Shown piece after piece: positions 31,664 through 43,681 of a stretch of DNA of 64,000 nt. Positions within the stretch are counted from its first letter, which is position 1; the number at the start of each line of letters is the position of its first letter. The translations under genes were made by a program, and so were the position numbers. The stretch is taken from contig JAHVKF010000002.1 in assembly GCA_019800895.1 (NCBI GenBank), positions 434,001 through 498,000 on the forward strand, written 5' to 3'. The notes below the pieces were generated by a model. That model was given only the letters and a program-made list of their open reading frames with translations, did no database searches and was not told where the DNA came from. Origin of the DNA: Halomonas denitrificans. GTDB lineage: Bacteria > Pseudomonadota > Gammaproteobacteria > Xanthomonadales > Wenzhouxiangellaceae.

Positions 31664-31695
31664 GTTCCCTCAGCCAGGCGGGGGGAAATCCCTCA
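31664..31695 (-). promoter_or_regulatory. Two-site element upstream of subtilase 1
   Basis: On the plus strand GGGGAAATCCCTCA (31682-31695) and TTCCCTC (31665-31671) repeat with a 23-bp period. They lie about 76-106 bp upstream of the ATG. The distal site matches the elements of the other two proteases; the proximal one is a half match. Confidence 0.6.
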
Positions 31696-31707
31696 TCCGC
31701 GGGCACG

Positions 31708-31738
31708 AAAAAGGCCGGTCTCCCGAGAGAGACCGGCC
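31708..31738 (-). terminator. Rho-independent terminator of subtilase 2
   Basis: Perfect 10-bp arms GGCCGGTCTC (31713-31722) and GAGACCGGCC (31729-31738), 6-nt loop, then TTTTT on the minus strand (31712-31708). It lies 46 bp past the stop. Confidence 0.9.
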
Positions 31739-31780
31739 GGAAACCGGGCAAGGGAGAGCCCGGCACTGCAGCGGAACGCT

Positions 31781-33076
31781 GCGATCAGTCGGCCTGGCGG
31801 TACCGATCGAGGAAGTTGACCTTGGCGAACGCGTAGCCGGCGCGGCTGACCGCGTCGACCGGCGCGAAGCGCGCCTTGATCGTCGGCTGCAGGTCGAAGG
31901 GACCCTGCTCCAGCGAGAAGCGCGCGGCCATGAGCTGCAGGTCCAGCGCCAGCTGCACGTGACCCCGGAAGCCGTCCGGCACCGCGCCGTCGTCTTCCAG
32001 CGCGATCCGCTCGCCGCCGAACTCGACCGTGATCGGATCGTTGCCCAGGCTCGCCTCGACGGCCGCCGCCTCGGCCTGCAGGCCCAGCGACTGGACCAGC
32101 GCATAGGCCAGCTCGGCGCGCAGCACCTGGCCGGACGGATCGAACACACCGTTGTCGTCGGTCAGCACGATCGGGTCCTGCACCTGCGTGGTGTCCTTCA
32201 GGCCACCGCCGCGAACGGCGCCGGCCTCGGCCGCGGCCAGGTCCAGGCCCAGCACGTCGACGAAGCTGTCGCTGCCGTCGGTCGGACGGAACTGGCGCAG
32301 GCCCGCACCCATGGTCAGGTACTCGGCCAGCTCGGCACGGGTGATCGACTGATCGGGTTCGAACGTGCCGCCGGCGCGGCTGTCGGCCAGCCGGTTCGCC
32401 ACGGCGAACTCGATGAAGCCCTGCGCCGGATGACCGGCCACGTCGGTCAGGCCGGTGAAGCCGTCGACGCGCATGAAGTCCACGTCGGCCTCGACCGTGC
32501 CCGGCAGCGCGGTGCCGTTGGTCACGCCCAGCGGATCCAGCGCCACGCCGGACACGGAGCCGATGCCCCGCACCGTGATGGTCCAGTCGCCCGGCACCGC
32601 CGGCGCCGTGACCGCGATCGACGGCCCGAGCAGCGGCAGCGAGATCGACGAACCGTAGCGGTTGCCGTTCGGGTCGGTCAGCACCAGGGCGACCGTGTTG
32701 TCCGAGACGTTCGCGCTGGCGATCACCGTCGACAGGCCCGGCTCGACCGTGAAGGTCTCCGTGTCCGGCTCCAGGATCGGGTCGAAGAACAGCGAGAAGT
32801 CCGGACCTTCGATCCGGCTCTGCTGGACGTTGGCGTTGAACGCGCGGTCCAGGTTGACCGTCAGGCCGTAGTCGGCGCGTGCACCGGCGGCCATCGCCAC
32901 GGCGGCGTAGGCGTTGACCATGCCCGCACCCACTTCCCAGCCCTCGCGGCCCGGGATGTTGGTCGCGGTGGCCTCGAGGATCTCGATGACCTCCGACCAG
33001 TGCAGGCTCGGGTTCGCCTCGAGCATCAGCGCCACCACGCCGGCCACGTGCGGCGCCGCCATCGACGTGCCGCTCA
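31781..33076 (-). repeat. 1,296-bp identical segment, copy in subtilase 2
   Basis: Runs from 4 bp beyond the stop codon of subtilase 2 to just inside its catalytic SGTSMAAP motif. It appears identical to 34447-35742 (offset 2,666 bp): the translations of both strands agree throughout, which leaves little room for silent differences. It encodes the last 429 residues, including the whole C-terminal SLH-type region. Confidence 0.9.
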
Positions 33077-41810: not shown

Positions 41811-41910
41811 CGAGCGAATTCTCCAGTCACCGCGCTACCAATCGGGCCAACGATCTCACGGTACTGTCAAAGGCATCGACCGATCAAGCGGCAGGACGCC
41901 GCGACGCCGG

Positions 41911-42750
41911 TCAGAGATCGCGGCGGAGCGAATCGATCGTGGCCCGAATCCGGCTGGAGTCCACGACCAGCGCCAGCTGCCGGGCGGCGGCTTCGAGCAG
42001 CGCTGCATCGTGTTCGGTGAAGAGCTTTCCGGGCGCAAGACTGTCTGCATAGACCACGGCGATGACCGACGCGTCGCGGACGACCGGAATCGCCACGAGT
42101 GCGCGAATACCGCTTCGGGCGATGCTCCCGCTGGAGGCCAGCGCGCGCGCGCCGTCGGTGTCGGAGCAGTATTCGCAGGCACCGCGTTCGAAGGCGTTGC
42201 GGATCGCGGTCAGGCTCGGCGGCGGATCGAAGACCGTTGTTCCGGACGCCAGCCGGGGCTCACCGGAGGCGTCGGCCAGCCACAGGCCCGCGCGCTCGCA
42301 GCCCGACAGGCGGACGACCTCCGACAGGGAACGGTCCAGCGTGTCGTCGCGCGACGGACCCGCCGGGGGATCGGTACGGTGCTCCGCTGCCGCGTCCCGG
42401 CCGGCCAGCGGCGGGTCTGCGGGCGCGGTGGAAAAATCACAGAGAACCGGAACGCCACCGACTTCGAGCCAGGCAGTGGAGGAGAGCAGCGCCCGGTCGA
42501 TCGGCCGGCCGTCGAGACGGGTTCCGTTCTTGCTGACCTGATCGGTCACCTGCCAGCCGGAGGCCACCGGCTCGATGACCAGGTGGACCCGCGATACGCC
42601 GGCGTGATCCAGCGTGAGGTCGGCGCCGGGCGACCGGCCCAGGGTGTACGAACGGTCACGCTCCAGCCGGAGCGATCGGCCGGGTCGGCCCGGGAGGAAC
42701 GCGGTGAGCGTGATTCCGGACCCGCCGGCCCGGGTCGAACTATCCTGCAA
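41911..42750 (-). CDS. FHA-GAF domain protein
   Basis: A protein of about 279 residues. The FHA domain (about 20-90; YTLGRSPGADLTLDHAGVSRVH and SKNGTRLDG) would bind phosphothreonine. A GAF domain follows (about 125-275; FERGACEYCSDTDG, ALVAIPVVRDASVIAVVYAD). No ATG suits; a TTG at 42750 overlapping the previous gene by 11 bp is the best start, so the N-terminus is uncertain. Lying directly upstream of the Ser/Thr kinase gene, it is a likely reader of that kinase's phosphorylation. It carries Cys residues (CEYC) in the GAF domain that may sense redox state or bind metal (speculative). Confidence 0.8.
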   Translation of the reverse strand: MQDSSTRAGGSGITLTAFLPGRPGRSLRLERDRSYTLGRSPGADLTLDHAGVSRVHLVIEPVASGWQVTDQVSKNGTRLDGRPIDRALLSSTAWLEVGGVPVLCDFSTAPADPPLAGRDAAAEHRTDPPAGPSRDDTLDRSLSEVVRLSGCERAGLWLADASGEPRLASGTTVFDPPPSLTAIRNAFERGACEYCSDTDGARALASSGSIARSGIRALVAIPVVRDASVIAVVYADSLAPGKLFTEHDAALLEAAARQLALVVDSSRIRATIDSLRRDL

Positions 42751-43570
42751 GACCGAGGCTGTAGCGAAGCGTCTCGGACCGGGCGCGCAGCAGTCCGTCG
42801 TGGTTGTCGAGATCGCGCGCCGAGCGCCAGACGTTCGGCACGAGGCCGTCGTCGGCCGCCGCGCGAACCGCGTTCTCGAACCCGACGAGGTCCTGGATGG
42901 CCCGCGAAACATCGTCGGCCAGCCACGCGGCATAGGCGTCGTCGAGCCGGTCCTGGAGCGCGTCGAAGGTCGATGTGTCGAGATCGCCGGACGCGGCGGA
43001 CAGCGCGGACTGGAGCTCGGCGAACTTGCCGTCGACGGTCTGGTCCACGCTGCGCGTGTCGGCGACGATCAGGAAGTCGGACCACTCCCCGCCGTTCCCG
43101 CGCACCCGGTAGCTGCCGGCGCTGGTCTCGGCGGTGATGTCGCGGAAGGTCGCGCCGTTCGAGCTCTTGAACAGGCGCAGCGGCGTGTTCGGTGTGTAGT
43201 GCAGTGCCGTGGTGTAGAGCTCGACCTCGGCCATGCCCTCGAAGCTGAGGCCACCGGTCGAGGGGGGATGGATCGTGATCATCAGCGGGAAGGCCGCGGG
43301 GAGGCTCAGCGACGAACCTGCGGGCAGCCGGTCCAGAAGGCTGAGGGAAAGCGGGTCGATCTGCGTGACCGAGATCCCGAGATTCTCTTCGCTGAGCCCG
43401 ACGGCGTCTTCGAAACGAAGCGTCAGTTCGGCCGAAGCGATTCCTGCCAACTCGATCTCCGCGAAGGCCTCGTTGCCTTCGATCGCGAGGTCGACGGTCT
43501 GGGCCTTCACCGGCCCGCAAAGGGCGACAAGCGCTAGAAGAAGCGTGGCGGTAGGGAAGGATCGGCGCAT
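42740..43570 (-). CDS. Secreted protein of unknown function heading the signalling unit
   Basis: A 276-residue exported protein with a clear signal peptide (about 1-23, cleavage after VKA). The mature part has a beta-rich half with a short motif FKSSNGATFRDIT (about 134-146) and a helical second half (about 170-276). I do not recognise the family with confidence; it could be a DUF6689-type protein. It overlaps the FHA-GAF gene by 11 bp and is likely the first gene of the unit. The same two-site element that precedes the proteases lies 75-111 bp upstream, so it is a predicted member of their regulon and might be the sensed ligand or a regulator of activity. Confidence 0.7.
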   Translation of the reverse strand: MRRSFPTATLLLALVALCGPVKAQTVDLAIEGNEAFAEIELAGIASAELTLRFEDAVGLSEENLGISVTQIDPLSLSLLDRLPAGSSLSLPAAFPLMITIHPPSTGGLSFEGMAEVELYTTALHYTPNTPLRLFKSSNGATFRDITAETSAGSYRVRGNGGEWSDFLIVADTRSVDQTVDGKFAELQSALSAASGDLDTSTFDALQDRLDDAYAAWLADDVSRAIQDLVGFENAVRAAADDGLVPNVWRSARDLDNHDGLLRARSETLRYSLGLAG

Positions 43571-43644
43571 GGTTCGAAACTCTCGAGCGGAATCCGCCGG
43601 TACGAAGTTCTCTTAACCTAGCAAGTCTCACGACCCGGCGCAAA

Positions 43645-43681
43645 CCGGGGAAATCCCTCAGGCGAGGCCGGGGAATCCCTT
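43645..43681 (-). promoter_or_regulatory. Two-site element upstream of the secreted-protein gene
   Basis: On the plus strand CCGGGGAAATCCCTCA (43645-43660) and CCGGGGAATCCCTT (43668-43681), spaced by 23 bp at the CCGGGG edge. They lie 75-111 bp upstream of the minus-strand ATG at 43570. The plus-strand fatty-acid hydroxylase gene begins 130 bp to the other side and could share the element. Confidence 0.65.

Follow-up and report, generated by a model that had tools for sequence, protein, structure and literature searches.

Paired Elements Ahead of the Subtilase Genes

We analyzed a 64,000-nt stretch of the Halomonas denitrificans genome (JAHVKF010000002.1), hereafter the window, in which three S8 subtilase genes lie alongside a cassette of five genes. 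The gene content would suggest, tentatively, Lysobacterales (Xanthomonadales). The cassette genes, all on the minus strand, follow the order DUF6689, FHA-GAF, Ser/Thr kinase-TPR, soluble HisKA_3 kinase, and NarL-type regulator (Table 1). Four paired sites of the TGAGGGATTTCCCCGG type occur here, all oriented toward the minus-strand genes, and their positions are read on this strand, toward the genes. They precede the inferred start codons of the three subtilase genes and of the DUF6689 gene by 58–112 bp. Within each pair the second copy lies downstream of the first, with a copy-to-copy spacing of 22–23 bp.

All four pairs had been reported at these loci in an initial annotation of the sequence, and the recurrence of spacing and distance stands, the present values refining its 21–23 bp and about 70–110 bp from the ATG. 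One half-site, the proximal site of element A, is weaker than claimed and retains the left arm alone (TGAGGGAACC). The distal site of element C, singled out there as the best single site, holds a dyad with 6-bp arms, GAGGGA-TT-TCCCTC, at 37012–37025, as had been described.

The matches greatly exceed the numbers found in shuffled sequences. At no more than two mismatches the window contains 4, compared with a shuffle mean of 0.06 (maximum 1 in 100 shuffles), and it contains 3 strict pairs versus 0.03 in shuffles (maximum 1). The whole genome has just five matches to the 16-mer at the same threshold. Four of them are elements A–D, and the fifth, on a different contig, is a single site, TGAGGGAAATCCCCGG, ahead of a gene for a DUF11 secreted protein.

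Table 1. Paired elements, associated promoter and terminator features, and genes of the locus. E is the expectation value with the profile built from other genomes only.
Feature	Position	Strand	Description
Paired element A	31655..31695	-	distal TGAGGGATTTCCCCCC, 31680-31695; proximal, half-conserved TGAGGGAACCGCACGATG, 31655-31672; E 1.9e-4
Paired element B	34313..34351	-	TGGGGGTTTTCCCCGG, 34336-34351, and TGGGGGACTTCCCGGAT, 34313-34329; E 1.4e-6
Paired element C	36986..37026	-	TGAGGGATTTCCCTCG, 37011-37026, and CGAGGGATTTGCCGGGTT, 36986-37003; E 3.5e-6
Paired element D	43645..43682	-	CAAGGGATTCCCCGG and TGAGGGATTTCCCCGG; sites 43668-43682 and 43645-43660; E 0.031
-10-like hexamer, element A	31628..31633	-	TCTCCT; fixed-position peak
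-10-like hexamer, element B	34285..34290	-	TAGCCT; fixed-position peak
-10-like hexamer, element C	36959..36964	-	TCTCCT; fixed-position peak
-10-like hexamer, element D	43615..43620	-	TAGGTT; fixed-position peak
Terminator-like hairpin with T-run	31713..31738	-	immediately precedes element A; closes the subtilase B unit
Terminator-like hairpin with T8	34378..34402	-	immediately precedes element B; closes the subtilase C unit
Subtilase A	29211..31589	-	Peptidase_S8, 792 aa
Subtilase B	31785..34250	-	Peptidase_S8 and SLH match, 821 aa
Subtilase C	34451..36928	-	Peptidase_S8 and SLH match, 825 aa
NarL-type response regulator	37077..37724	-	proposed binder; Response_reg and GerE
Soluble histidine kinase	37721..38491	-	HisKA_3/HATPase_c; 4-nt overlap with regulator gene
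Ser/Thr protein kinase	38499..41810	-	TPRs at the C terminus; a single transmembrane segment predicted near residues 303-321
FHA-GAF protein	41911..42750	-	start uncertain, TTG at 42750 assumed
DUF6689 protein	42740..43570	-	N-terminal signal-like segment; first cassette gene

The same sites were recovered by a model that did not contain the window. Twenty-four elements, taken from other genomes only, were aligned, and the resulting sequence-only profile was used to scan the window's own genome of 3.2 Mb. The top four matches were exactly elements A–D (E 1.4e-6 to 0.031) and the next-best match had an E of 3.9; because the first foreign elements had come from a window-derived matrix, this result demonstrates mutual consistency between genomes rather than de novo motif discovery. 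No further element of significance turned up in this genome.

Distribution of the Element and the Regulator in Relatives

In a sample of 299 genomes of the same order, the regulator (called at E ≤ 1e-48) is present in 36. The element (called at E ≤ 0.005) was detected in 26 of these 36 genomes and in 1 of the 263 regulator-negative ones (Fisher 3.5e-28). Outside the training set it was detected in 13 of 23 regulator-positive genomes, and in genera outside training only in 8 of 17 (Fisher 2.5e-10); both Fisher values ignore shared ancestry and are therefore to be read as descriptive only. Several genera mix regulator-positive and regulator-negative members, and inside such genera the element follows the regulator. 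The lone regulator-negative match (G225) precedes a GAPDH-like gene and was taken as chance, since about 1.3 such matches are expected in 299 genomes.

Linkage alone could yield such co-occurrence if the element, being a real and conserved promoter element, were read by another DNA-binding protein and the cassette regulator were merely linked to the subtilases. Subtilase C does also track the regulator (25 of 36 regulator-positive versus 2 of 263 regulator-negative genomes), and for this reason the exceptions were examined separately. Of the 11 regulator-positive genomes without subtilase C, four nevertheless keep the element: directly upstream of DUF6689 in G059 and G112, about 1.1 kb from DUF6689 in G056, and elsewhere in G030. 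In both genomes with subtilase C and without the regulator (G184 and G298), no element was found upstream of subtilase C. Moreover, the regulator is the sole recognisable DNA-binding protein in the cassette, and a 7-2-7-like inverted repeat suits a NarL-type dimer. A different reader of the element is, on these grounds, unlikely.

Among 23 matches outside training (E ≤ 0.005), 16 lie directly ahead of S8 subtilase genes; the other seven comprise two upstream of DUF6689, one about 1.1 kb from DUF6689, one beside the regulator at a contig end, and three elsewhere. Some subtilase targets are located off the cassette contig (G082:C22, G138:C55, G209:C95 and C169, G020:C7, G269:C93, and G271:C5). 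With all loci pooled, 34 elements stand 36–93 bp ahead of inferred subtilase starts. In G643, which belongs to another order, the cassette is intact in a locus of 45% guanine-plus-cytosine (GC) content; one of its subtilases is preceded, at about 65 bp, by a palindrome of the element type, TAGGGGGAACCCCCCA, and the other has a similar palindrome, TAGGGGGTTCACCCTA, upstream. In the AT-rich genome G041, of the same order as the window, TATGGGGGTTTTCCCCAATA and AATAGGGGTTTTCCCTGG are found ahead of its two subtilases.

A regulon would have been refuted, as stated beforehand, by paired sites that are scattered with no bias toward gene starts; the scan of this genome and its relatives did not show this. 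The regulon hypothesis of the initial annotation is supported instead, as in relatives the element tracks both subtilase starts and the presence of the NarL-type regulator.

The similarity of the sites might alternatively be a remnant of duplication of promoter plus gene, with no selection for the site, given that subtilase B is closely related to subtilase C and that the two share an identical tract of 1.28 kb. However, this tract lies at the 3′ end, and the promoters are at the most diverged end of the genes. In addition the element, unlike its flanks, is conserved before subtilases of 36–55% identity and before the unrelated DUF6689, across GC contents, which makes such an origin very improbable.

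Two further observations concern sites of other kinds. Two genomes of the genus g54 (L133, L136) have weaker, near-identical element-like matches at G250:C1:1370161 and G104:C1:1316977, and no recognised gene follows them. The DUF11 gene preceded by the single site (C4:148435-148450; L013, L086) encodes more than 2,800 aa, and TATGCT follows some 41 bp after the start of the site. Orthologs of this gene in six relatives, none with a detected regulator ortholog, had no matching site, and its place as a distal regulon member is unproven.

Promoter Layout

In an alignment of 31 elements the distal site reads T[GA][AG]GGG[AT]TTTCCCC and the proximal site TG[GA]GGGnnnTnCCGGAT, and one more strongly conserved column lies farther downstream. 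Among 28 non-redundant elements a -10-like hexamer occurs at one single offset, element positions 68–73, where the mean match is 1.64 of 3 key bases versus about 0.45 elsewhere; T occupies position 73 in 22 of the 28 (p 1.4e-12 before correction). If the start point is assumed about 7 nt past this hexamer, the site centres fall near -43 (proximal) and -66 (distal). No good sigma-70 -35/-10 pair was found in the element region, as would be expected of an activator-dependent promoter. With the inferred start points the layout is that of a class II activator, that is, a site abutting the -35 region at a fixed distance to the -10. The site form TGRGGGW-TT-TCCCC is an inverted repeat with arms of about 7 bp, such as NarL-type dimers bind, and represents a candidate binding site.

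The same regulator could bind the element and repress the subtilases, for example with release upon dephosphorylation. A dimer near -43 can block polymerase, and the direction of control is unreadable from sequence. Activator-dependent promoters, however, are usually built in this way, with a fixed -10, no good -35 and sites centred around -43 and -66, and repressor operators are more variable in position; we regard repression as decidedly unlikely. Even less can be said for an RNA-level leader or attenuator. Hairpins can arise from inverted repeats, but the element is upstream of the inferred -10 and its arms, about 2 bp apart, are too tight for a hairpin loop, so this explanation is hardly credible.

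The total of terminator-like hairpins is not above that in shuffled sequences, and both matches fall exactly in intergenic gaps. Given these hairpins upstream of elements A and B, the arrangement is consistent with each subtilase forming its own transcription unit.

Genes of the Cassette and the Subtilases

The domains of the regulator are those of a canonical response regulator of the NarL type, and a regulator of this type surrounded by the genes had been noted earlier. Its receiver (Pfam Response_reg) has residues D10, D11, D56, T84 and K106 invariant across 18 orthologs, and its C-terminal helix-turn-helix domain is GerE (PF00196, 1.6e-17). The putative cognate kinase is encoded by the adjacent, overlapping HisKA_3 gene (PF07730 and HATPase_c), with conserved synteny. 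This kinase has no transmembrane sensor and no recognised sensor domain, HisKA_3 and HATPase being its only domains. Twenty loci that carry the regulator were examined in relatives; most have the same gene set, and a subtilase gene is often divergent from DUF6689 there. In G112:C27 (L139:2873-4101), another NarL-type regulator, more distantly related, is paired with a HisKA_3 kinase immediately ahead of the DUF6689 cassette.

Counted per 100 nt, subtilases B and C share 48–89% identity in the first 1.2 kb; from there to the stop codon, a length of about 1.28 kb, identity is 100%. This sharp boundary suggests a very recent gene conversion. A homologous subtilase pair in relative L066 has the same step (mostly 90–100% identity past the boundary), which points to a recurrent event.

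Proposed Mechanism

We consider it probable, at roughly three chances in four, that the paired sites are the activator part of promoters through which the NarL-type regulator of the cassette controls the subtilases. We infer the assignment of the element to this regulator from co-occurrence, conserved synteny, the two subtilase-only genomes, and the NarL/DosR-like layout; binding, activation, cooperativity and the order of upstream signals are inferred likewise. A phosphorylated regulator dimer would bind the strong distal palindrome TGRGGGWTTTCCCC, centred near -66. The weaker proximal site TGRGGGnnnTnCCGGAT, centred near -43 and abutting the -35 region, would be bound too, probably cooperatively. 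The bound regulator would then recruit RNA polymerase to a poor promoter, with a -10 of the form T/C-A/C-nn-C-T and no good -35, and each subtilase gene would be switched on separately. In the window genome the DUF6689-FHA-Ser/Thr kinase-histidine kinase-regulator operon would also be switched on: element D stands ahead of the cassette, so the regulator would autoregulate in a positive feedback. The input probably comes via the cassette, in which the transmembrane Ser/Thr kinase-TPR and the FHA-GAF protein may act on the soluble histidine kinase or alongside it, and this kinase would phosphorylate the regulator.

Three points weigh against control by this regulator. Ten of the 36 regulator-positive genomes, mostly of other families, lack the element at E ≤ 0.005, and some of them show single palindromes. 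In its right arm, CCGGAT, the proximal site departs from the distal one, and another factor might account for part of its recognition. Finally, the cassette, subtilases and element are co-inherited, and their co-occurrence could partly follow the cassette, not the regulator protein.

A broader proposal is tentative, and we hold it as possible at best. The whole cassette may constitute a dedicated relay, present in at least two gammaproteobacterial orders, in which the transmembrane Ser/Thr kinase with its TPR sensor part and the FHA-GAF adaptor govern the kinase/regulator pair, with secreted DUF6689 as an extracellular partner and secreted subtilases as the chief targets.

Comparison with Known Systems and Significance

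Among solved structures, DevR/DosR scores best as a relative of the regulator, followed by VraR and NarL. DosR/DevR of Mycobacterium tuberculosis likewise combines a NarL-type receiver with GerE and has paired strong and weak sites in the same layout as here. DevR binds the strong and the weak site cooperatively, and the proximal site overlaps the -35 (PMC3029386). Phosphorylation of DosR by a Ser/Thr kinase modulates its activity (PMC12919924), a possible parallel, although in the present cassette the link is one of synteny only. The system described here differs in its consensus TGRGGGWTTTCCCC, in its S8 subtilase targets and in phylum, and also in having a soluble kinase in which no sensor domain is recognised and dedicated genes for a Ser/Thr kinase and an FHA-GAF protein in the same operon. 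The DosR box is TTSGGGACTWWAGTCCCSAA, which the GGGA..TCCC-type arms resemble. Neither the DosR box consensus nor haem GAF sensor kinases of the DosS/DosT kind were found, the kinase having HisKA_3 and HATPase only. As consensus, kinase and targets differ, the system would work like DosR, yet it is no DosR system.

NarX-NarL and VraSR likewise pair a HisKA_3 kinase with a NarL-type regulator; they differ in that the kinase here has no transmembrane sensor, and in sequence motif and regulon. RpfC/RpfG and VgrS/VgrR of xanthomonads are further gammaproteobacterial examples of two-component systems that govern secreted enzymes or virulence. Their regulators are of types different from the NarL-type one here.

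Literature searches on the motif, on DUF6689 and on the system or cassette returned nothing relevant and no paper on the regulon. The proposed mechanism is of the NarL/DosR kind, and the uncharacterised cassette of a Ser/Thr kinase and a two-component pair is the more unusual part. The results provide a sharp cis-element and a candidate regulator for the control of secreted proteases, for which no described counterpart was found in this large order. They also give a first functional context for DUF6689 and for the conserved cassette, and unlinked targets elsewhere, in other genomes, can be predicted from the element alone.
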